A stretch of DNA of 64,000 nt from assembly GCF_026241195.1 (NCBI RefSeq), contig NZ_JAPFQO010000009.1, positions 62,001-126,000 of the forward strand, given 5' to 3'. The DNA is from Pontibacter anaerobius (lineage in GTDB: Bacteria > Bacteroidota > Bacteroidia > Cytophagales > Hymenobacteraceae). Every line of letters begins with the position of its first letter. The first letter of the stretch is position 1. The notes below the pieces were generated by a model, which was not told where the DNA came from, made no database searches, and saw only the letters and a list, made by a program, of their open reading frames with translations. The position numbers and the translations under genes were made by a program. Below are positions 1 through 52,389 of this stretch, in pieces.

Positions 1-229
1 CCAGGTCGGCATCGAACACATCGTTGAAAACCACGCCGCCCCCGTAAAGGCCGATAGTAGCCAGTACGAGCCAGCCCAGCAAGTATAAATTGCCAGACTC
101 AAACCCATTCTCCCAGAGTTGCAGCGACAGCAGAGCGCCTGAGGCAGCGTAACCCAGCATGATATCGGCCACAGCGGTCACGATATTGGCCGGGCGCATC
201 AGGCGCAGGTAAGCTTTAAGTGTACTCAT
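1..229 (-). CDS. eboC: UbiA-like prenyltransferase EboC, 5' part only
   Basis: The first 76 residues are present and the rest lies beyond the window edge. Translation from the ATG at 229 gives MSTLKAYLRLMRPANIVTA, a hydrophobic helix, and then the NDVFDADLD stretch, which is the Asp-rich NDxxDxxxD prenyl-diphosphate/Mg site of UbiA enzymes. It begins 3 nt after the stop of the TatD-like gene, so the two are surely co-transcribed. In ebo clusters the UbiA-like member is EboC. Its substrate is not established. The cluster as a whole is linked to moving a precursor to the periplasm in scytonemin-producing cyanobacteria. The family call is firm; the ebo assignment depends on the neighbours. Confidence 0.82.
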   Translation of the reverse strand, partial: MSTLKAYLRLMRPANIVTAVADIMLGYAASGALLSLQLWENGFESGNLYLLGWLVLATIGLYGGGVVFNDVFDADL

Positions 230-6843: not shown

Positions 6844-6851
6844 TAAGTTTG
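6844..6851 (+). promoter_or_regulatory. Likely -7 box (TAAGTTTG) of the sir operon
   Basis: Matches the Bacteroidota -7 consensus TAnnTTTG exactly. It would place transcription start about 20 nt before the S-box riboswitch. The -33 region is weak. The minus-strand sulfur operon has an equivalent box at a similar distance, which supports it. Confidence 0.45.
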
Positions 6852-6878: not shown

Positions 6879-6980
6879 AGTTTATAGACGAAGAGGCGAG
6901 AGAACAGGCTCCCTGACCCTCTGGCAACCATCCTCATGGAAAGGTGCCACATCCTGCCCAACGAAGGGAAAATATAAATT
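6879..6980 (+). ncRNA. S-box (SAM-I type) riboswitch upstream of the sir operon
   Basis: Shows the S-box core in order: AGAGGCGAGAG, then GGCTCCCTGACCC, CTGGCAACC, AAAGGTGCCACATCC, and a closing arm. The terminal P1 helix pairs GTTTATA (6880-6886) with TATAAAT (6973-6979). A second copy with the same core lies at 17737-17839 on the other strand, before cysH. The unusual point is that the P1 3' arm ends only about 8 nt before the ATG of a polycysteine mini-ORF. SAM binding would therefore more naturally block translation start of that leader than form a terminator. Known for the family: it binds S-adenosylmethionine and usually switches sulfur genes off. SAM-IV or SAM-I/IV variants share this core and are not excluded. 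Confidence 0.85.
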
Positions 6981-6988
6981 ACAAAACC

Positions 6989-7099
6989 ATGAACACAACA
7001 AATCTCATCCCAGCATCTGCAAACGCTAACGTAAGCTTTGCCCCACACAGTGCCGCCACTACTGCTGTGATGTGTTGTTGTTGCTGTTGTTCCTGCTAA
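6989..7099 (+). CDS. Polycysteine leader peptide 1 (36 aa, ends Cys6-Ser-Cys)
   Basis: A mini-ORF starting ATG AAC ACA ACA directly after the SAM riboswitch. The peptide begins MNTTNLIPASANANVS and ends VMCCCCCCSC-stop: six consecutive Cys codons (mostly TGT), one Ser, one Cys, then TAA. It has no signal peptide, and seven of its last eight residues are Cys, so it makes little sense as a structural protein. It makes good sense as a cysteine-sensing leader whose translation reports Cys-tRNA supply. An independent leader before cysH has the same Cys6-X-Cys-stop ending. Polycysteine attenuating leaders are known from mycobacterial sulfur operons; that this one works the same way is inference. 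Too short for standard gene callers. Confidence 0.8.
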   Translation: MNTTNLIPASANANVSFAPHSAATTAVMCCCCCCSC

Positions 7100-7252
7100 G
7101 GGAGCCCCCCATCCCGTTTCTGGCCTAAACTAATGTCGCTGCTCCCGGAGTAGCCCATCCGGCCGTTTTATCCCGGTTTCAATTCTTGCGTTCGAGGCAT
7201 CAGTAAGGTAAAGTATACCTGTGCTGGTGGCAGAGCGCTTAGCAACAACAGT

Positions 7253-7393
7253 ATGCGTACAGCAGCAAAATCTCCTTCTTTATACTTCTCCGGTAACCTG
7301 GCTACAACAACTGCCAATGCCTATACTTCTTTTATGCCGATAGGTGCCTGCTGTTGCTGTTTGCACCAGTTCACGGGCATGCGCGCCTGTTAG
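7253..7393 (+). CDS. Second leader ORF of the sir operon (46 aa, internal Cys4)
   Basis: Starts at ATG 7253 (MRTAAKSPSLYFSGN) and runs to TAG. It contains GACCCCL at residues 32-37 and ends GMRAC-stop, so a four-Cys run is followed by a last Cys at the stop. It lies between leader 1 and the sulfite reductase gene, with about 150 nt before it and 116 nt after it. No riboswitch precedes it directly. It overlaps a longer in-frame opening of the sulfite reductase frame, but in a different frame. It is probably a second cysteine checkpoint or a decayed copy of the first. Less certain than leaders 1 and 3 because the Cys run is shorter and internal. Confidence 0.6.
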   Translation: MRTAAKSPSLYFSGNLATTTANAYTSFMPIGACCCCLHQFTGMRAC

Positions 7394-7509: not shown

Positions 7510-9603
7510 ATGCAAAGCTTCAGAACAGAAATAGAAAACCCCATAGTAGAAAAAGATATCATTGAACTGGAGCGGAAGATCCGGGAATACCGCGAAGGAA
7601 AGCTCCAGGAGGATAAGTTCAAGAGCTTGCGCCTGGCCCGCGGCGTGTACGGGCAGCGCCAGCAGGGAGTGCAGATGGTGCGCATCAAGCTTCCGTTCGG
7701 TAAACTGACCACGCAACAACTGCTGCGCATCGCCGCCATCTCCGACGAGTACTCCACCGGCAACCTGCACCTGACCACGCGCCAGGACATCCAGGTCCAT
7801 TATGTGAGACTGGACAGAACCCCGGAGCTTTGGGCCAAGCTGGAGCAAGACGACATTACCCTGCGCGAGGCCTGCGGAAACACGGTGCGTAACGTTACGG
7901 CATCGCCGGAGGCAGGCATCAACCCGAATGAACCCTTCGACGTGTCGCCCTATGCAGATGCGGTGTTTAGATACTTTCTCCGCAACCCGATCTGCCAGGA
8001 AATGGGGCGCAAGTTTAAGATGTCCTTCTCCTCCAGCGATGCGGATACGGCCCTGTCGTACATGCACGACCTGGGCTTTATCCCGAAGTTACAAGACGGT
8101 AAGCGTGGCTTTAAAGTGATGATCGGTGGAGGGCTGGGCGCACAGCCTGCCCTGGCGCACACGGCTTTCGAGTTTCTGGAAGAGGACAAAGTAATCCCCT
8201 TCATCGAGGGCGTGCTTCGGATTTTTGACCGCCACGGCGAGCGCAACAACCGCAACAAAGCCCGGTTCAAATACCTCATCGCCAAACTGGGCCTGGAGAA
8301 GGTTCTGAGCTTGGTGAACGAGGAGTACAAGGCGCTTAAATCACAGGCTTTCGGGATAGACAAAAGTATAAACTTTGATCCTGCCGCGCCTGCGCCGGGG
8401 GAGATTCCGGATTACGTGATAGAGGATACGGATAAGTATGATAAATGGCTCCGGACGAATGTATTCAGGCAGAAGCAGGAAGGATTTTACGGAATCTACT
8501 TGAAAGTGCAGCTTGGCGACATCAGCAGCGACACCGCCCGGGAACTGGTGCCGCTGGTGCAGGGGTTTGCCGCCAACGATATACGTGTGACGCAGGGGCA
8601 GAACCTGCTGCTGAAGTACGTGCGCCAGGAGGCACTCCCATACTTGTTTTCTCAACTGGATGCGATTGGCCTTGCCGAGCCGGGCTTTAATAGCCTGGCC
8701 GACATCACTGCCTGTCCCGGCACCGACACCTGTAACCTGGGCATCTCCAACAGCACCAACATTACCAAAGTGCTGGAGCAGGTGATCGTGGAGGAGTACC
8801 CGGAAATGCTGTTCAACACCGATTTTAAGATCAAGATCAGCGGCTGTATGAACTCCTGCGGGCAGCATGGCATGGCGAGCCTGGGCTTTCATGGGTCCTC
8901 TCTGAAAAGCGGCAAGAACGTGCTTCCGGCCCTGCAGGTGCTTTTAGGAGGCGGCACGGTAAGCAACGGGCAGGGGCGCATCGCGCAGAAACTTCTGAAG
9001 GTGCCGAGCAAGCGCGGGCCGGAGGTGCTGCGCTTTGTGCTGAACGATTACCTGGCGAACAGGCAGGAAAACGAGCACTTCAATGCCTACTACGACCGCA
9101 ACGGCAAGGACTATTTCTACCAGCTGCTGAAGCCGCTCACTGACCTGACCACCCTGACACCGGATGACTTCATTGACTGGGGCCATCAAGATGGCTTCCA
9201 ACCGGAAATCGGGGTGGGCGAGTGTGCCGGCGTGATGATAGACCTGGTGGCCACCCTGCTCTACGAGGCCGACGAGAAGCTGGAGTGGGCCGGCGAAGCA
9301 CTGGAGGAGCAACGCTACGCGGACTCTGCCTACTACAGCTATGCCGCCTTCGTGAGCACGGCCAAAGCCCTGCTGCTCGATAAAAACGTGAGCACCAACA
9401 CGCAGCACAACATCCTGCAGGAGTTCGATGCGCACTTCGTGGCACCGGGCATCTTCAGGTTTGAGCCTGACTTTACGAGCAGGGTGCTGCAAATAAACCA
9501 GAACGAGCCAAGCCAGACTTTTGCTACTGACTACCTGAGCCAGGCGCTGGTGTTCCTACAGGAGGCAAACCGCTACAGGAAAGAGAAAGTCGTGAATGCG
9601 TGA
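7510..9603 (+). CDS. sir: Siroheme [4Fe-4S] sulfite reductase with C-terminal HEPN-like domain
   Basis: A 697-residue one-chain nitrite/sulfite reductase from ATG 7510 (MQSFRTEIENPI). The frame is open further upstream, but that part overlaps leader ORF 2 and is not conserved-looking. Two ferredoxin-like half-domains and two siroheme-binding domains fill about residues 1-550. The cluster ligands are Cys402 and Cys408 (CPGTDTC) and Cys446 and Cys450 (SGCMNSCGQH), the canonical CX5C...CX3C set. After about residue 555 comes an all-helical extension (VGECAGVMIDLVATLLYEAD to VVNA) that looks like a HEPN domain, found in some Bacteroidota relatives. It reduces sulfite to sulfide, the step before MetZ. 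Nitrite as substrate is possible from sequence, but the siroheme and cys neighbours favour sulfite. Confidence 0.9.
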   Translation: MQSFRTEIENPIVEKDIIELERKIREYREGKLQEDKFKSLRLARGVYGQRQQGVQMVRIKLPFGKLTTQQLLRIAAISDEYSTGNLHLTTRQDIQVHYVRLDRTPELWAKLEQDDITLREACGNTVRNVTASPEAGINPNEPFDVSPYADAVFRYFLRNPICQEMGRKFKMSFSSSDADTALSYMHDLGFIPKLQDGKRGFKVMIGGGLGAQPALAHTAFEFLEEDKVIPFIEGVLRIFDRHGERNNRNKARFKYLIAKLGLEKVLSLVNEEYKALKSQAFGIDKSINFDPAAPAPGEIPDYVIEDTDKYDKWLRTNVFRQKQEGFYGIYLKVQLGDISSDTARELVPLVQGFAANDIRVTQGQNLLLKYVRQEALPYLFSQLDAIGLAEPGFNSLADITACPGTDTCNLGISNSTNITKVLEQVIVEEYPEMLFNTDFKIKISGCMNSCGQHGMASLGFHGSSLKSGKNVLPALQVLLGGGTVSNGQGRIAQKLLKVPSKRGPEVLRFVLNDYLANRQENEHFNAYYDRNGKDYFYQLLKPLTDLTTLTPDDFIDWGHQDGFQPEIGVGECAGVMIDLVATLLYEADEKLEWAGEALEEQRYADSAYYSYAAFVSTAKALLLDKNVSTNTQHNILQEFDAHFVAPGIFRFEPDFTSRVLQINQNEPSQTFATDYLSQALVFLQEANRYRKEKVVNA

Positions 9604-9702
9604 TGGAGTGAATGAGTGAATTTTCAGGAAATAACTACAGCCAGAATATTCACCATACACGCGCACTCATTCAGTCATTCACTCATTCAAAATTTTGCAA
9701 AA

Positions 9703-10542
9703 ATGGCATCAAGAAGAAAAGAAATACGAACAACCGCTGCAGCACAGCAGCCATCTATAACAAAGTATAAACTGCCAAAACTGACGCTTGTGGGCGCCGG
9801 CCCCGGCGATGAGGACCTGATCAGCCTGAAAGGGGTGAAGGCACTGCAGCAGGCCGACGTGGTGCTGTATGACGCGCTGGTAAACTCGGAGCTGCTGAAG
9901 TATGCGCCGGCCGGTGTGCCGAAGATCTATGTAGGCAAACGCGCCGGGGCGCATTCCCTGAAGCAGGGCGAGATTAACAACCTGATCGTGGATTTTGCCT
10001 TCTCGCACGGGCACGTGGTGCGCCTCAAAGGCGGCGACTCCTTTGTGTTTGGCCGGGGCTACGAGGAGCTGGAGCATGCCGACAAGTTCAACATCGAGAC
10101 GGCGGTGGTGCCAGGCATCTCCAGTTCCATTGCGGTGCCCGAGCTGCAGCAGATTCCGCTTACCATCCGGGGCGTGAACGAGAGTTTCTGGGTGATTACG
10201 GGTACCACCAGCTCCGGGGAGATTTCCTCTGACGTGGTGCTGGGCGCGCAATCCAATGCCACCGTGATCATTTTAATGGGGGTGAGCAAACTGGCCCAGA
10301 TAGCAGCCATCTTCAGCGCCGCAGGCAAGGCCGACACACCCGTAGCGGTGATCCAGAACGGCTCGCTGCCCGACGAGCGGATTGCCTTGGGCAATGTGCA
10401 CAACATCGTGGAGCGCGTGGAGGCGCAGCAAGTTGGTGCCCCGGCCATCATCGTGATAGGAGAGGTGGTGAATTTTCATCCGGCTTTGCGCTACACGCTT
10501 GGTCTGCAGAAGCAGCAGGAGCTGGTGGCACTGAGCGCATAA
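9703..10542 (+). CDS. cobA: Uroporphyrinogen-III C-methyltransferase
   Basis: A 279-residue SAM-dependent methyltransferase that makes precorrin-2, the first committed step to siroheme. Motifs: LVGAGPGDEDLISLKGVKAL (N-terminal glycine loop), VVRLKGGDSFVFGRGYEEL, VPGISSSIAVPELQQIPLT and VIGEVV. The start is set at ATG 9703 (MASRRKE). A GTG at 9616 in the same frame would add 29 residues made of a repetitive TGAATGAGTGAA tract that also recurs inverted near 9680, so that longer form is unlikely. It follows sir and precedes the siroheme synthase fusion by 15 nt, completing the cofactor supply for the reductase. Confidence 0.92.
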   Translation: MASRRKEIRTTAAAQQPSITKYKLPKLTLVGAGPGDEDLISLKGVKALQQADVVLYDALVNSELLKYAPAGVPKIYVGKRAGAHSLKQGEINNLIVDFAFSHGHVVRLKGGDSFVFGRGYEELEHADKFNIETAVVPGISSSIAVPELQQIPLTIRGVNESFWVITGTTSSGEISSDVVLGAQSNATVIILMGVSKLAQIAAIFSAAGKADTPVAVIQNGSLPDERIALGNVHNIVERVEAQQVGAPAIIVIGEVVNFHPALRYTLGLQKQQELVALSA

Positions 10543-10557
10543 TTAAGTATTAGCCAC

Positions 10558-12084
10558 ATGGATAACATTCGGGAAGAGTATACTTCGGAGGCCATCCCTC
10601 AGGGCCGCTCCGCCTCAGCTAACCCGCTATTCCCGGTTTTTCTGAAACTGGAGCAACTGCGGACGCTGGTGGTGGGTGGCGGCTTTGTAGGGCTGGAAAA
10701 GCTATCGGCCATACTTGCCAACAGCCCCAGGGCAAAGGTTAGGCTGGTTGCCCCGCAGATAGAAACGGAGATCTGGGCTTTGGTAGCAAACTACCCGCAC
10801 GTAGAGCTGGTGGTGCGCGAGTTTCAGGAGGAGGATCTGGCGGATAGGGATTTGGTGCTGGTCGCCACAGACGATAAGGTGCTGAACAAGGCTATCCGAG
10901 ATCTGGCAAAATCCAGGAAGATCCTTGCCAACGTGGCCGATACGCCCGAGCAGTGTGATTTTTACCTGGGATCGGTGGTGCAGAAAGGCAGCCTGAAAAT
11001 GGGTATCTCCACCAACGGGCAGTCGCCTACGGTGGCCAAGCGCGTGAAGGAGGTGCTGAACGAAGCATTCCCGGAAGAGATAGACCAGGTGCTGGGCAAA
11101 ATGGGCAGGATAAGGGCGCAGCTCAACGGCGACTTTGCCGAAAAGGTAAAGCGGCTGAATGAACTGACGGAAGGCTTGGTGGCACCCGTACAGCAGAAGA
11201 AACCAAAGTATAAAATGACGTCGGTGTTGGTGATGGTGTTTGCCGCCATCGCGCTAATGGTAACCGGCCATCTGCTGTTCACCTACATCCCGTTCCGGAC
11301 CATTGGTAACACCGCCCTGAACCTTGCTGGGCAGGTAGACTCCGATATCCTGATTTTTATACTTGCCGGTTTTGTGGCGCAGCTGATTGACGGTGCCCTG
11401 GGGATGGCCTACGGGGTGAGCGCGACCACTTTCCTGCTGAGTTTTGGCGTTAGCCCTGTGGCGGCCAGCGCCAGCGTGCACGCTTCGGAGATCTTTACCT
11501 CTGGCGTGTCGGGTTGGATGCACCTGAAGTTCGGTAACGTGAACAGCAAGCTGTTTAAGAACATTGTGCTGCCCGGCGTTCTGGGGGCCATACTTGGGGC
11601 CTACCTGCTGTTCAGTTTTGAGGAGTATCTGTACATCATCAAGCCTATTGTAGCGGCTTATACGTTGGTGCTGGGTATACTTATTTTGCGGAAAGTGCTG
11701 CGCAAGAAAGTAAAGAAAAAACCGGTGAAGCGGCTGGGCTTTCTGGCTACGGCAGGCGGTTTCCTGGATGCCATTGGCGGCGGGGGCTGGGGCCCGATCG
11801 TGTCATCCACGCTGATTGCCAAAGGCCGTAATCCGATGTATACCATTGGCTCGGTGAACCTGGCAGAGTTTTTTGTGTCGATTGCCAGTTCATCCACTTT
11901 TGTTGCTTTTGCAGGTATCTCGCACTGGCAGATTATAGTAGGACTCATACTTGGCGGCTCTATCTCAGCCCCCATCGGGGCCATAATGGCGCGTCGCTTG
12001 CCGGTTAAAACCATGATGATCATTGTGGGCATCGTGGTGATCATCGTGAGCCTTAGGCTGATCGTGATGACACTGCCTTTTTAA
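10558..12084 (+). CDS. Fusion: precorrin-2 dehydrogenase/siroheme synthase domain + TauE/SafE (TSUP) permease
   Basis: A 508-residue two-part protein. Residues about 20-210 are a CysG-N/Met8-like NAD-binding domain: VVGGGFVGLEKLSA nucleotide loop, VLVATDDK with the expected catalytic Asp, and KMGISTNGQSPTVAKRVKE. This part oxidises precorrin-2 and may insert iron to give siroheme. Residues about 220-508 are a TSUP membrane permease with seven or eight helices, including GFVAQLIDGALGMAYGVSATT and GGFLDAIGGGGWGPIVSS repeats. TSUP proteins move sulfite, sulfate or organosulfonates. The join has no frameshift or stop, so this is a true fusion. It links cofactor making to sulfur-anion transport in the sir operon. 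Confidence 0.9.
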   Translation: MDNIREEYTSEAIPQGRSASANPLFPVFLKLEQLRTLVVGGGFVGLEKLSAILANSPRAKVRLVAPQIETEIWALVANYPHVELVVREFQEEDLADRDLVLVATDDKVLNKAIRDLAKSRKILANVADTPEQCDFYLGSVVQKGSLKMGISTNGQSPTVAKRVKEVLNEAFPEEIDQVLGKMGRIRAQLNGDFAEKVKRLNELTEGLVAPVQQKKPKYKMTSVLVMVFAAIALMVTGHLLFTYIPFRTIGNTALNLAGQVDSDILIFILAGFVAQLIDGALGMAYGVSATTFLLSFGVSPVAASASVHASEIFTSGVSGWMHLKFGNVNSKLFKNIVLPGVLGAILGAYLLFSFEEYLYIIKPIVAAYTLVLGILILRKVLRKKVKKKPVKRLGFLATAGGFLDAIGGGGWGPIVSSTLIAKGRNPMYTIGSVNLAEFFVSIASSSTFVAFAGISHWQIIVGLILGGSISAPIGAIMARRLPVKTMMIIVGIVVIIVSLRLIVMTLPF

Positions 12085-12288: not shown

Positions 12289-13455
12289 ATGAGTGACAAC
12301 ACCACCGGGGCTATACGCCTCCAGACGCCACGATCACACTACCGGGAGCACTCGGTGCCTTTATACTTAACCTCCAGCTTTGTTTTTGAGGATGCCGAGC
12401 AGGCGCGCGCCGTGTTTGCCGAGGAGGAGCAGGGCCAGGTATACTCCCGCTATGCCAACCCGAACGTAGACGAGTTGCTGGAAAAGATGTGCCACCTCGA
12501 GAAGGCTGAGGATGGCTTTGCCTTCGCCTCCGGGATGGGCGCTATTTTCGGCAGCCTGGGGGCGCTGCTGCAGTCCGGCGACCATGTGCTGGCCTGCCGT
12601 TCGCTGTTCGGCTCCACCCATCAGTTGCTCACCAATATTTTCCCGAAATGGGGGGTAACCTATACTTACGCCGATGCTAGCAAGCCGGAGGAATGGGAGA
12701 GCCTGATCAAGCCGGAGACCAAACTTATACTTATCGAAACGCCCTCTAACCCGGGCCTGGAGCTGATCGACCTGGCCTGGCTGGGTGAGCTGAAACGTAA
12801 ACATAATTTACTGTTACTGGTGGATAACTGCTTTGCCACGCCTGTACTGCAGAACCCAACCGATTTCGGCGCTGAACTGGTGCTGCACTCCGCCACGAAG
12901 TTTATCGATGGGCAGGGGCGCGTGCTGGGAGGAATTGCCGTGGGCAGCAAGGAGCTGATCGCGCAGGTACGGTACTTTGCGCGTCATACCGGCCCGGCCA
13001 TGTCGCCGTTTAATGCCTGGGTGCTGTCAAAGAGCCTCGAGACGCTGAGCCTGCGGGTGGAGAAGCACTGTGAAAATGCCCTGAAGCTGGCGGAGGCACT
13101 GGAAGGAAACCCGGCGCTGGAGAAGGTGAATTACCCGTTCCTGCCGTCGTTCCCGCAATATGAGCTGGCTAAAAAGCAGATGCGTCAGGGCGGTGGCATC
13201 GTGACGCTGGAGGTGAAGGGCGGCTATGACGCAGCCAAGCGTTTCATCGATAACCTGCAGATGGCCAGCATCAGCGCCAACCTCGGCGATACCCGCACCA
13301 TCGTCACGCACCCGGCCTCTACCACGCACTCCAAATTGACGGAGGAAGAGCGTGCCGCCACGGGCATCACGCCGGGGCTGGTACGGGTTTCGGTGGGCCT
13401 GGAAAGTATAAACGACATCATCGAAGACATAAAACAGGCGCTGGAGCGAGTGTAG
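12289..13455 (+). CDS. metZ: O-succinylhomoserine sulfhydrylase (Cys/Met metabolism PLP enzyme)
   Basis: A 388-residue fold-type I PLP enzyme of the trans-sulfuration family. It starts MSDNTTGAIRLQTPRSHYRE, and Lys204 in LHSATKFIDGQGRVLGG is the PLP lysine. Other marks are YSRYANPNVDELLEKMCHLE, SGMGAIFGSL and LVDNCFATPVLQNP. The family makes homocysteine from an acylated homoserine and sulfide (MetZ), or cystathionine with cysteine (MetB). Placement downstream of sulfite reductase favours direct sulfhydrylation, so MetZ is preferred. A 204-nt gap with a palindrome separates it from the fusion gene, so it may have its own promoter. Confidence 0.8.
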   Translation: MSDNTTGAIRLQTPRSHYREHSVPLYLTSSFVFEDAEQARAVFAEEEQGQVYSRYANPNVDELLEKMCHLEKAEDGFAFASGMGAIFGSLGALLQSGDHVLACRSLFGSTHQLLTNIFPKWGVTYTYADASKPEEWESLIKPETKLILIETPSNPGLELIDLAWLGELKRKHNLLLLVDNCFATPVLQNPTDFGAELVLHSATKFIDGQGRVLGGIAVGSKELIAQVRYFARHTGPAMSPFNAWVLSKSLETLSLRVEKHCENALKLAEALEGNPALEKVNYPFLPSFPQYELAKKQMRQGGGIVTLEVKGGYDAAKRFIDNLQMASISANLGDTRTIVTHPASTTHSKLTEEERAATGITPGLVRVSVGLESINDIIEDIKQALERV

Positions 13456-14454: not shown

Positions 14455-15711
14455 CTAGTACTCGATTTCGGCTACCATGCCCGCGCCTACCGTGGCGAAC
14501 GAGGTTTCATCCACAAGTATAAAGCCGCCGTTGGAACGGTTGTCGGCATACTTGTCCAGCAGCAATGGGGAGGCCGTTTTGATCTGCACGCGGCAGATGT
14601 CGTTCAGCTGTACCTGGTCCACATCCTCCAGGTGGTCGAGGGTGTTGATGTCGATCTTATACTCGATGTGGCGCACCACGCAGCGGGTCTCGGTAGAGTT
14701 GTGTCGAAGCAGCAGCTTGGCTCCCGGCTTCAGGGCCTTGTTGTGCATCCAGCATATCTCGGCCTCAAACTCCTGCGCTGCCTCCAGCCCGTCAGCAGCC
14801 TTCACAATCACGTCGCCTCTGCTAATGTCCACTTCATCTTCCAACTGCAGCACCACCGACATCGGCGCAAACGCCTCCTCCAGCTCCTTGCCGCCTAACT
14901 CCACGAATTTCACCGTAGTCATCTGCCCGGATGGCTGTACGGTTACTTTATCGCCTGCTTTGTAGGTGCCGCTGATCACTTTGCCGGCATAGCCACGGTA
15001 ATCCTGGTGCTCTGCTGTGAGCGGGCGAATTACGTACTGCACCGGAAAACGGGAATCGTCCAGGTTAAAGTCCTGCGAAACCGGCACCTGCTCAAGGTGC
15101 TCCAGCAGGCTAGGCCCCTGGTACCACGGCATCGTCAGCTCAGAGCCCTCCACAATGTTGTCGCCTTTCAGCGCACTGACAGGGATGAAGGTCACGTCTT
15201 TGGCCTGCAGCTTTCTGGCGAACTGCTTGTAGTCCTCCACAATCTGGTTGTACACCTGCTCATCGTAGCCCACCAGGTCCATTTTGTTGATACAGATAAC
15301 CAGGTGCGGGATGCCCAGCAGCGAGGAGATGATGGAGTGTCGGCGCGTCTGCTCCTGCACACCTTTGCGGGCATCCACCAGTATGATGGACAGGTTGGAG
15401 TTGGACGCACCCGTTACCATGTTGCGCGTGTACTGGATGTGGCCCGGCGCATCGGCGATGATGAACTTGCGCTTCTCAGTAGAGAAGTACTTGTAGGCCA
15501 CATCGATGGTGATGCCCTGCTCGCGCTCCGCCTTTAGACCGTCCGTTAGCAGCGACAGGTCTACCTGGCCGTCCTCGTTCACGCGGCCGGAGCTCTCGAT
15601 GGCTTCCAGCTGGTCTGCAAAGATCTGCTTGGTGTCGTAGAGCAGCCTGCCGATGAGGGTGCTCTTGCCGTCGTCGACGTTGCCGGCGGTGATAAATCGT
15701 AGTATGTCCAT
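14455..15711 (-). CDS. cysN: Sulfate adenylyltransferase subunit 1 (GTPase)
   Basis: A 418-residue translation-factor-like GTPase that drives APS synthesis by CysD. P-loop GNVDDGKSTLIGRLLYD begins at about residue 11; the switch II region is DAPGHIQYTRNM and the base-recognition motif NKMDLVGY. Beta-barrel domains II and III fill the second half. At 418 residues it ends after domain III, so there is no fused APS kinase (CysC). The ATG overlaps the cysD stop (TAATG), showing translational coupling. Last gene of the cysH-cysD-cysN operon. Confidence 0.95.
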   Translation of the reverse strand: MDILRFITAGNVDDGKSTLIGRLLYDTKQIFADQLEAIESSGRVNEDGQVDLSLLTDGLKAEREQGITIDVAYKYFSTEKRKFIIADAPGHIQYTRNMVTGASNSNLSIILVDARKGVQEQTRRHSIISSLLGIPHLVICINKMDLVGYDEQVYNQIVEDYKQFARKLQAKDVTFIPVSALKGDNIVEGSELTMPWYQGPSLLEHLEQVPVSQDFNLDDSRFPVQYVIRPLTAEHQDYRGYAGKVISGTYKAGDKVTVQPSGQMTTVKFVELGGKELEEAFAPMSVVLQLEDEVDISRGDVIVKAADGLEAAQEFEAEICWMHNKALKPGAKLLLRHNSTETRCVVRHIEYKIDINTLDHLEDVDQVQLNDICRVQIKTASPLLLDKYADNRSNGGFILVDETSFATVGAGMVAEIEY

Positions 15712-16619
15712 TAAAAATATCCTCCTTTCTTGCGGTCTTCCATCGCCGTTTCCGACAGTTTATCATCGATGCGGGTGGCGCCACGTTCACTTATTTTAGA
15801 CTCCAGAATCTCGGCGATTACACCGTCAATGTCATGGGCTATACTTTCCACGGCAGCCGTACAGGTCATGTCGCCCACGGTGCGGAAGCGTACCTGCCTG
15901 GTCACTACCTCATCGTCTGGCTCCTGGTAGATAAAGTCCGACCAGGCCATCAGTTTGCCGTCGCGCACCAGGCATTCGCGTTCGTGGGTGTAGTAGATGT
16001 TGGGTAAGGCGATTTCCTCACGCTTGATGTAGTTCCACACATCCAGCTCTGTCCAGTTGGAGATCGGGAACACACGCACGTTCTCGCCTTTGCTGATGCG
16101 GCCGTTAAAGGTGTTCCAGAGCTCCGGGCGCTGGCGTTTCGGGTCCCACTGGCCAAACTCATCGCGCACCGAGAAAATGCGCTCCTTGGCACGCGCCTTT
16201 TCCTCGTCGCGGCGGGCCCCGCCGATGCAGGCGTCAAAGCCAAACTCCTCGATCGTTTCGAGCAGGGTATGGGTTTGTAGCGCGTTGCGGCTGGCGTAGC
16301 GGCCCTTCGGCTCCGACAGGTTTTTGCGCAGGATGGTGTCCTCCACGTGGCGCACGATCAGCTTCTCGCCCAAGCGCTCAGCCAGCTCATCGCGGTAGCG
16401 GATGGCCTCCGGAAAGTTGTGGCCCGTGTCTATGTGCACGAGCGGAAACGGGAACTTGCCCGGACGAAAGGCTTTCTCTGCCAGCCGCACCAGCGTGATT
16501 GAGTCCTTGCCTCCTGAAAAAAGCAGGGCCGGCTTCTCGAACTGCCCCGCCACCTCGCGCATGATGTGGATGGCTTCCGCCTCCAGTTGGTCAAGGTAAT
16601 CCAGATATCTCTTTGTCAT
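15711..16619 (-). CDS. cysD: Sulfate adenylyltransferase subunit 2
   Basis: A 302-residue ATP pyrophosphatase-type enzyme that adenylates sulfate to APS. The PP-loop is LLFSGGKDSITLVRL (about residues 32-46). Other marks: HIDTGHNFPEAIRYRDEL, CIGGARRDEEKARAKERIFS and the WTELDVWNYI motif. Full length for the family. It lies 79 nt after cysH and overlaps cysN by one base. With CysN it forms the two-subunit ATP sulfurylase. Confidence 0.96.
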   Translation of the reverse strand: MTKRYLDYLDQLEAEAIHIMREVAGQFEKPALLFSGGKDSITLVRLAEKAFRPGKFPFPLVHIDTGHNFPEAIRYRDELAERLGEKLIVRHVEDTILRKNLSEPKGRYASRNALQTHTLLETIEEFGFDACIGGARRDEEKARAKERIFSVRDEFGQWDPKRQRPELWNTFNGRISKGENVRVFPISNWTELDVWNYIKREEIALPNIYYTHERECLVRDGKLMAWSDFIYQEPDDEVVTRQVRFRTVGDMTCTAAVESIAHDIDGVIAEILESKISERGATRIDDKLSETAMEDRKKGGYF

Positions 16620-16697: not shown

Positions 16698-17417
16698 TTA
16701 TCTTGCGTGTAGCCCACACTCTTTCTTGGAGTTATCCTCCCACCACCAACGCCCGGCGCGGAAGTCCTCACCCTCGGCTATGGCCCGGGTACAAGGGGCG
16801 CATCCTATACTTACGAATCCTTTGTCGTGCAGTGGGTTGTAGGGGATGTGCAGCGCTTTTACATCGGCTCTTACCTGTTCCAAAGTATAGTCCAGCAGCG
16901 GGTTATACTTGATGAGCTGGTGCGCCTCGTCCCACTCCAGCAGCTGCAGGTCCTGGCGCGCCCCCGATTGGTCGGCGCGGATACCGGTCACCCAGATCTG
17001 CACACCGTGCAGGGCGCGGTTCAGGGGCTCCACCTTGCGGATGAAGCAGCAAGCTTTGCGGTCGTCGATGGAGTTGTAAAAGCTCATTGGGCCCTTCTCG
17101 TTCATCAGCTGCTCCACGGCCTCGTGCCTCGGGAAGTATACCTCTATCTTCCTGCCGTAGTGGTTGTTGGTCTTGTGCAGCAACGTATAGCTCTCGTTAA
17201 ATAGGCGGCCGGTGTCCAGCGTGAACACGCGGATGGGCAGGTCCTGCTCAAAGATGTGGTGCGTGATGAGCTGGTCTTCCACACCTAGGCTAGAGGAGAA
17301 AGCAATGTTTCCCTCAAATTCCTGAGTCAGGCGGCGAAGCCCCGCTGCAGCCGGTAAACTAGCCAGAGAGGCACGCAAGGAGTCCAACCTGGTTAGTAAT
17401 TCCTGTGATAAATCCAT
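16698..17417 (-). CDS. cysH: Adenylyl-sulfate (APS/PAPS) reductase
   Basis: A 239-residue reductase started at ATG 17417 (MDLSQELLTRLDSLRA). A longer in-frame opening to 17474 has no family similarity and overlaps the leader region. SSSLGVEDQLITH is the nucleotide loop. KACCFIRKVEPL gives the CC pair and IGCAPCTRAIAEGEDFRAGRWWWE gives the CxxC, together the four ligands of an [4Fe-4S] cluster; ECGLH near the end holds the catalytic Cys. A four-Cys cluster marks APS rather than PAPS reductases, in keeping with the lack of a cysC in the window. Reduces APS to sulfite. First structural gene behind riboswitch 2 and leader 3. Confidence 0.93.
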   Translation of the reverse strand: MDLSQELLTRLDSLRASLASLPAAAGLRRLTQEFEGNIAFSSSLGVEDQLITHHIFEQDLPIRVFTLDTGRLFNESYTLLHKTNNHYGRKIEVYFPRHEAVEQLMNEKGPMSFYNSIDDRKACCFIRKVEPLNRALHGVQIWVTGIRADQSGARQDLQLLEWDEAHQLIKYNPLLDYTLEQVRADVKALHIPYNPLHDKGFVSIGCAPCTRAIAEGEDFRAGRWWWEDNSKKECGLHAR

Positions 17418-17509: not shown

Positions 17510-17594
17510 GGTAAAGAAAGCCCTTTTAATGCTGCTGACCGGCAGCAATGCCTGAGTTAAAGTTCAGGACAGTGCAAAATGTAGAAGTGCTGGA

Positions 17595-17726
17595 TTAGCA
17601 CATACAACAGCAGCAACAACAGTACCCGTGTGTGGTGTGGGCGCTGTCGAGAATAAGGGTAGCCTGAGCAGTGGCGAATCCACGGCCGGCTATACTTGGT
17701 GCTGGTATGTGTTGGTAGGTTTGCAT
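17595..17726 (-). CDS. Polycysteine leader peptide 3 (43 aa, ends Cys6-Met-Cys)
   Basis: A mini-ORF from ATG 17726, about 10 nt after riboswitch 2. It begins MQTYQHIPAPSIAGRGF and ends HGYCCCCCCMC-stop. Six consecutive Cys codons (TGT TGT TGC TGC TGT TGT), one Met, one Cys, then TAA mirror leader 1. The bodies of the two peptides are not alike, so only the Cys tail and the distance to the riboswitch are shared, as expected if selection acts on Cys codons near the stop. It lies about 177 nt upstream of cysH with a candidate hairpin between. The longer overlapping frame on this strand is a shadow. Confidence 0.82.
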   Translation of the reverse strand: MQTYQHIPAPSIAGRGFATAQATLILDSAHTTHGYCCCCCCMC

Positions 17727-17736
17727 GTTGTTGTCT

Positions 17737-17839
17737 ATTTATATCTCCCGAACTAACCGGGCTAGGATGTGGCACCTTTCTAAACCAGATGGTTGCCAGA
17801 GGGTCAGGGAGCCTATTCTCTCGCCTCTTCTCTATAAAT
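17737..17839 (-). ncRNA. S-box (SAM-I type) riboswitch upstream of cysH-cysD-cysN
   Basis: Read on the minus strand it has AGAGGCGAGAGAATAGG, CTCCCTGACCCTCTGGCAACC in two pieces, AAAGGTGCCACATCC and a closing P1 helix ATTTATA / TATAAAT (17833-17839 with 17737-17743). The core is nearly identical to the copy at 6879-6980. P3/P4 loops differ, as expected for two conserved structured RNAs. The P1 3' arm again ends about 10 nt before a polycysteine mini-ORF. Confidence 0.85.
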
Positions 17840-17872
17840 TTTTACGGACGTTTCCGTCTTTTACTATCGGTG

Positions 17873-17880
17873 CAAAATTA
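17873..17880 (-). promoter_or_regulatory. Likely -7 box (TAATTTTG) of the cysHDN operon
   Basis: Exact match to TAnnTTTG on the minus strand, with start of transcription expected 20-30 nt before the riboswitch. A TTTAC stretch lies about 18 nt further upstream as a possible -33 element. Confidence 0.45.
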
Positions 17881-52128: not shown

Positions 52129-52389
52129 ATTAGCAAGTATAAAACGATTCTACTTCAGCCTCTTTTGGAAGCCAGTTAAGTAGACGTCATCAGCTCTGTG
52201 GCAGAGCGGTTCCAGGCAGACATCATTGCCGGTTGTGGTTGCGAATTTAGGATATTTTTCTGAAAGGTGAGGGCGGTTTTTGGGGATAGTTTTCGTTTGG
52301 AAAAGGCCATACTTCTGTTTGAAGCACTTTATCATCAGCCGTAGGCCTCCCGCCCTGCTTATGCAAAGTAAACTTCTTACTGGACCACT

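Follow-up and report, generated by a model that had tools for sequence, protein, structure and literature searches.

Classical attenuators such as those of trp, his and leu carry regulatory codons for the amino acid of their own pathway, and alternative RNA pairings start from those codons. In mycobacteria, cys operons are preceded by leaderless polycysteine short ORFs (sORFs) (Canestrari et al., 2020, cited in PMC9094748); reportedly, the Cys run lies near the stop codon, an obvious terminator is absent and Rho has been suggested. Candidate polycysteine leaders have also been reported in Actinobacteria (PMC1262725). In Rhodobacterales, the uORFC-8-2 motif upstream of cysS is an upstream ORF (uORF) with tandem Cys codons, for which ribosome-mediated attenuation has been proposed (PMC8632094). 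Further, riboswitch-gated uORFs are known in Mycobacterium tuberculosis, namely Mbox/rv1805A (PMC12810186) and those of B12 riboswitches (PMC11260477), where an aptamer regulates how a short upstream ORF is translated, with coupling to the expression of what lies downstream. Transcriptomics of Flavobacterium psychrophilum has given clues for leader-peptide attenuation before amino-acid operons generally (PMC9723704).

In the present locus, a SAM-I riboswitch aptamer (S-box) is followed by a polycysteine leader ORF upstream of sulfur genes. By covariance model the aptamer is the same as that of other SAM-I riboswitches (RF00162), which likewise precede sulfur genes, whereas a codon-reading leader ORF appears to serve as the expression platform in place of a terminator or blocked gene start. 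The ORF resembles the mycobacterial sORFs in being short, in its Cys run near the stop and in its position, but those are leaderless, actinobacterial and reportedly without an aptamer, while the present ORF follows an S-box and is enriched in Met codons as well. The criterion of leaderless translation is not met, as S-box and promoter element both lie upstream of the ORF. The uORFC-8-2 motif differs in having two Cys codons only, an intrinsic terminator, no riboswitch and a host from another phylum, and the M. tuberculosis uORFs in having no reported amino-acid-sensing codon run and Mg2+ or B12 as ligand. In contrast to the classical attenuators, translation of the leader would itself be under a metabolite aptamer, and a canonical terminator has not been demonstrated. 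Each component is thus known separately, and the combination is apparently undescribed: the original prediction had stated that no such coupling was known in Bacteroidota, and we found no published case of an S-box with a polycysteine leader in openly accessible literature, although an earlier description in subscription papers or preprints, which lay outside the search, is not excluded.

The window is the whole stretch of DNA analysed, 64,000 nucleotides from Pontibacter anaerobius (Table 1). A SAM riboswitch had been predicted from the sequence about 8 nt before a 36-codon ORF ending in Cys6-Ser-Cys-stop. All of this holds: RF00162 matches the aptamer, the gap from P1 to the ATG measures 8 nt, and the ORF (ATG at 6989, stop at 7097-7099) reads MNTTNLIPASANANVSFAPHSAATTAVMCCCCCCSC. 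Both S-boxes of the window score above the RF00162 gathering score of 44.4 bits. The sulfite reductase context was also correct, with a SiR/NirA gene at 7510, but the device is not confined to sulfite reductase. A further S-box and polycysteine leader, which the prediction did not include, lies on the opposite strand (17840-17595) before a cysH-cysD-cysN operon divergent from the sulfite reductase operon. Its ATG is 9 nt past P1 and its tail is Cys6-Met-Cys-stop. The cysH start was set at an internal ATG because the gap then fits that in relatives.

Table 1. Features of the two S-box and leader loci and their operons (positions count from the first letter of the window)
Feature	Position	Strand	Basis or remark
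TAnnTTTG promoter element before S-box 1	6844..6851	+	exact match TAAGTTTG
S-box 1, SAM-I riboswitch aptamer	6879..6980	+	RF00162, 58.9 bits, E 4.3e-11
Leader ORF 1, 36 codons, end CCCCCCSC-stop	6989..7099	+	position and tail conserved in relatives
Sensor codons Cys6-Ser-Cys, leader 1	7073..7096	+	direct sequence reading
Small stop-spanning hairpin TTCC-tgctaa-GGGA, leader 1	7090..7103	+	stop codon within the loop; function inferred
AGCAACAACA, complement of leader 1 Cys codons	7241..7250	+	z -2.9 vs shuffled spacers
Sulfite reductase (NirA/SiR family), first gene of operon	7510..9603	+	NCBIfam matches below equivalog cut-offs
Uroporphyrinogen-III C-methyltransferase (siroheme synthesis)	9616..10542	+	
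O-succinylhomoserine sulfhydrylase-like (MetZ-like) gene	12289..13455	+	
TAnnTTTG promoter element before S-box 2	17873..17880	-	exact match TAATTTTG
S-box 2, SAM-I riboswitch aptamer	17736..17840	-	RF00162, 67.7 bits, E 1.2e-13
Leader ORF 2, 43 codons, end CCCCCCMC-stop	17595..17726	-	conserved in Pontibacter relatives
Stop-spanning hairpin GTGC-taatcca-GCAC, leader 2	17587..17601	-	followed by T-rich stretch 17586-17576
CAGCAGCA, pairs with leader 2 Cys codons in predicted fold	17530..17537	-	fold z -3.47
cysH (APS/PAPS reductase)	16698..17417	-	start at internal ATG
cysD and cysN (sulfate adenylyltransferase)	14455..16619	-	

The window also encodes a 508-aa protein (10558-12084, +), whose residues 1-200 correspond to the precorrin-2 dehydrogenase domain (siroheme synthase N-terminal) and whose remainder resembles a membrane transporter, possibly a fusion. 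Between leader 1 and sulfite reductase, at 7253-7393 (+), there is another short ORF that contains a run of Cys (…GACCCCLHQFTGMRAC-stop). An ATG recurs about +127 to +153 past the first stop in most SiR relatives, but a conserved second leader in SiR operons is not claimed, as neither sequence nor Cys content is conserved there among relatives.

A pattern scan of a genome collection returned at least 120 stretches, and a simple motif test finds both an S-box and a Cys-run ORF in frame in most of them. Frequencies cannot be taken from these loci, since the scan pattern already requires an S-box core together with Cys codons. The device occurs in Pontibacter, Hymenobacter, Mucilaginibacter, Saprospiraceae and Flavobacteriales, at no fewer than about 110 loci, and among the matches listed all named carriers are Bacteroidota except L059 (Verrucomicrobiales). 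In an Rfam check of 18 diverse, distant loci, 17 had an S-box; the exception was L059, which fits the simple motifs but was rejected as a member for want of an Rfam S-box match. The leader set comprises at least 111 sequences; it contains L059 and a few leaders whose start codon is uncertain, which makes counts from it approximate.

An unbiased estimate came from RF00162 matches in 119 genomes of the class, chosen regardless of leaders. The original prediction had proposed searching Bacteroidota S-boxes for downstream Cys-rich ORFs, and the outcome favours it: a leader follows 11 of the 15 S-boxes that precede MetZ-like or cysH genes and none of the 83 that precede metH, metY or hom (Fisher p 1e-11). 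The four sulfur-gene S-boxes without a clear leader count against a two-stage model. MetZ-like here means the best match to the MetZ of the window within a small reference set; the gene so named is an O-acetylhomoserine sulfhydrylase at L260 and probably at most other loci. The arrangement is not due to chance, as gauged by how often a short ORF with four or more Cys among its last 14 residues has its start codon 5-20 nt from a given position. At random positions in the same loci 253 of 162,600 (0.16%) pass, an overestimate because real leaders are included; the passes are 12 of 110 for S-boxes class-wide and three of four in this genome. Lack of conservation would have refuted the original prediction, and instead three features persist across Bacteroidota: the Cys run, a start codon shortly past P1 and the association with sulfur genes.

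The leader device also stands before other genes. In Hymenobacter, L053 (2149-3594, +) has an S-box and a nearly Met-free Cys leader before an amino-acid permease, as do L018, L026, L038, L061, L084, L100 and L116; this permease, of the BcaP/cationic-transporter type, is a candidate Cys or cystine importer. Elsewhere the device precedes TonB-dependent receptors, a protein unmatched in Pfam and a pyridine-nucleotide disulfide oxidoreductase (L088 142-2706, -; L241 699-3695, +; L150 1851-2864, -; L041 644-1690, -), which are candidate members of the sulfur regulon with unknown role.

The anatomy of the loci fits the predicted gating of the leader by SAM. The S-boxes with a leader precede genes of methionine or cysteine metabolism, as SAM-I membership requires. 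Across leader loci the start codon is mostly 7-15 nt past P1, which leaves no space for a terminator of the aptamer itself. Bacteroidota do not use Shine-Dalgarno pairing at initiation. In Flavobacterium johnsoniae, initiation is tuned by adenines at -3, -6, -12 and -13 (PMC6847099), and the leaders agree at -12 (A in 85%) and -3 (purine in 91%). The P1 3' strand, at about -10 to -18 relative to the start codon, forms their A-rich stretch and supplies the A-rich element at -10 to -14 with which Bacteroidota ribosomes initiate; P1 overlaps the initiation region as in a riboswitch-gated uORF. P1 also departs from that of other SAM-I riboswitches: its 3' strand is GATAAG in methionine-class S-boxes, while in the leader class it is A/U-rich, mostly TATAAA. 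From this geometry we infer that P1, stabilised by SAM, conceals the start signal and blocks translation of the leader; binding of SAM is likewise inferred. A TAnnTTTG promoter element, the Bacteroidota -7 box, is present in the 70 nt that precede the S-box at 80 of 104 leader loci, compared with 4 in a control window.

We propose a two-stage RNA sensor wired in series, in which an S-box and then a codon-reading leader switch sulfur genes; we consider this likely, in the absence of any experiment. In the first stage, P1 with bound SAM would occupy the A-rich start signal and keep ribosomes off the leader. In the second, low SAM would allow translation of the leader, and ribosomes would stall on its Cys- and Met-rich last codons when charged tRNA-Cys or tRNA-Met is scarce. 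The stalled ribosome would prevent the codons from pairing with the RNA past the stop, and the freed RNA would pair further downstream, letting transcription continue into the sulfur genes; the pairings rest on comparison and the switching is inferred. If the leader is untranslated or quickly finished, the stop-spanning hairpin would form and transcription would presumably end at the following T-rich tract or beyond. Full expression of the sulfur genes would require a shortage of SAM and of Cys/Met at the same time. With somewhat less assurance, we lean towards the broader reading that SAM, charged tRNA-Cys and charged tRNA-Met are integrated on one transcript throughout Bacteroidota, with P1 serving as the start signal and the codon mix tuned to the pathway.

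Evidence for the pairings comes from a swap test, in which the pairing of leader codons with their own post-stop RNA was compared with their pairing with the post-stop RNA of other leaders. The codons pair better with their own RNA (pairing 1:2; z -4.4 after dereplication, reversed control +1.1), and so do the next two neighbouring segment pairs, 2:3 (z -8.6, control -1.7) and 3:4 (z -5.1, control -1.4). The test is not free of background, as a control at +100..118 reached z -2.2, and its own-versus-swapped comparison of 1:2 gave no signal when Mucilaginibacter or Hymenobacter was considered separately. By the whole-set swap test, the loci nevertheless meet the attenuator criterion of alternative structures that start at the regulatory codons. 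Relative to shuffles, folds are most stable in windows whose 3' end is about +10 to +20 or +45 to +60 past the stop; stability rises again near +80 and then fades toward the gene, and T content is maximal at +15 to +29. Motifs resembling the stop-spanning hairpin of leader 1 (TTCC..GGAA or TTCC..GGA) occur in five of six SiR relatives, hairpins like that of leader 2 occur in L020, L123, L139 and L153, and in L046 and L107 the Cys codons lie within strong hairpins with a T tract after them. In Mucilaginibacter, the segment AACACGT has two alternative partners, the Met-Cys-Cys codons and a downstream ACGTGTT; column covariation there is weak. Consensus folding of small clade sets found a shared structure in Saprospiraceae and none among the Hymenobacter permease leaders.

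Two further generalisations about structure were set aside. Long-range pairing of the Cys run downstream, though seen in both leaders of the window, has a mean z of only -0.48, and a strict per-leader search for three regions (1:2 versus 2:3) was weak outside Mucilaginibacter. Flavobacteriales (L048, L052, L081, L110, L126) carry a hairpin-like element around AGGGCC(C), about 60 nt past the leader stop, with flanking stem sequences that vary by species.

How transcription is ended is less clear. A scan for generic intrinsic terminators downstream of leaders rose barely above shuffles, and the enrichment of terminators built on leader codons fell short of significance (p 0.11). This absence of clear enrichment is among the observations that make a Rho-dependent off-step possible, and we hold that version tentatively. 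A ribosome stalled near the stop would keep Rho from loading onto the C-rich spacer, as in E. coli tnaC, and an untranslated or finished leader would leave the loading site exposed so that Rho ends transcription; gating by the S-box and sensing of Cys/Met are retained. Spacer composition agrees with it, as C exceeds G in 90% of leader loci and in 29% of methionine-class S-box spacers (p 9e-16), a contrast weakened by the differing species mixes of the two sets. The sensor codons adjoin the stop codon, as this version would have it. There is precedent in the M. tuberculosis Mbox, where a riboswitch-gated uORF acts with Rho (PMC12810186), and candidate Rho sites have been proposed at actinobacterial Cys leaders (PMC1262725). 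Rho alone, however, leaves unexplained the T peak past the stop and the co-varying pairings 1:2, 2:3 and 3:4. The choice between an intrinsic and a Rho-dependent off-step remains open, and both routes share the two stages of the proposed sensor.

The codon stage of the two-stage sensor is supported by the composition of the leader tails. Cys makes up 50% of the last 12 residues and 1% of the rest of the leader, and Met 10.6% compared with 1.3%, an eight-fold enrichment. In the last 42 nt, 154 ATG triplets are in frame and 5 and 7 are in the other frames, and the Cys codons are of both kinds (421 TGT, 280 TGC). These patterns point to decoding and not to a nucleotide motif, as far as sequence can tell. 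Within the final 14 residues, the proportion of Met varies with the gene downstream: it is 21% in leaders of metX, 10% in those of the MetZ-like/metY group, 8% for cysH, 4% for SiR and 1% for the Hymenobacter permeases. The leaders thus meet the criterion of a leader-peptide attenuator, a short ORF with regulatory codons for the pathway amino acid. The ribosome that reads Cys, as originally predicted, agrees with codons, co-varying downstream RNA and target genes, but the prediction was too narrow in that Met codons are apparently read too; the response is inferred in either case.

The same patterns bear on whether SAM is the only signal, with the leader acting for the S-box as a mere expression platform whose translation or non-translation sets termination, and the Cys run having no sensing role. 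Such an arrangement exists in M. tuberculosis, where riboswitch-controlled uORFs lack a regulatory codon run (PMC11260477, PMC12810186), yet we regard it as improbable here, given that the peptides are dissimilar apart from the Cys run, their only conserved feature, that Met content tracks the target gene and that methionine-class S-boxes have no leader. Even less credence is due to the view that the peptide functions as a microprotein, for example by binding metals or thiols, and merely happens to be produced under SAM control: Cys-rich tails could bind metals and the ORFs show good Bacteroidota start context, but the clades share almost no sequence besides the tail, which is a near-homopolymer at the extreme C-terminus, Met varies with the downstream gene, and the codons pair with the post-stop RNA. 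The sequence facts are solid and the two-input reading is well supported by comparison; the biochemical response remains an inference.

If the two-stage sensor is true, it would be a natural switch of two sensors in series, a metabolite aptamer and then a codon-reading ribosome, conserved across a phylum that initiates without Shine-Dalgarno pairing and whose RNA regulation is little known. S-box control in Bacteroidota would be divided, with methionine genes under SAM only and sulfur-assimilation genes under SAM and Cys/Met, and a riboswitch helix would be able to carry a non-Shine-Dalgarno start signal. Annotators would gain about a hundred leader genes with a sharp signature.

The 4.65 Mb Bacteroidota genome from which the window is taken has four S-boxes, three of them with a Cys leader. 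The fourth, before metH, has no leader. The third (L260) lies outside the window; its leader has the tail MRTTMCVMRGCCC and is followed by metY-metX-hom. The window itself also carries a fluoride riboswitch at 52174-52239 (-) (RF01734, 52.3 bits).
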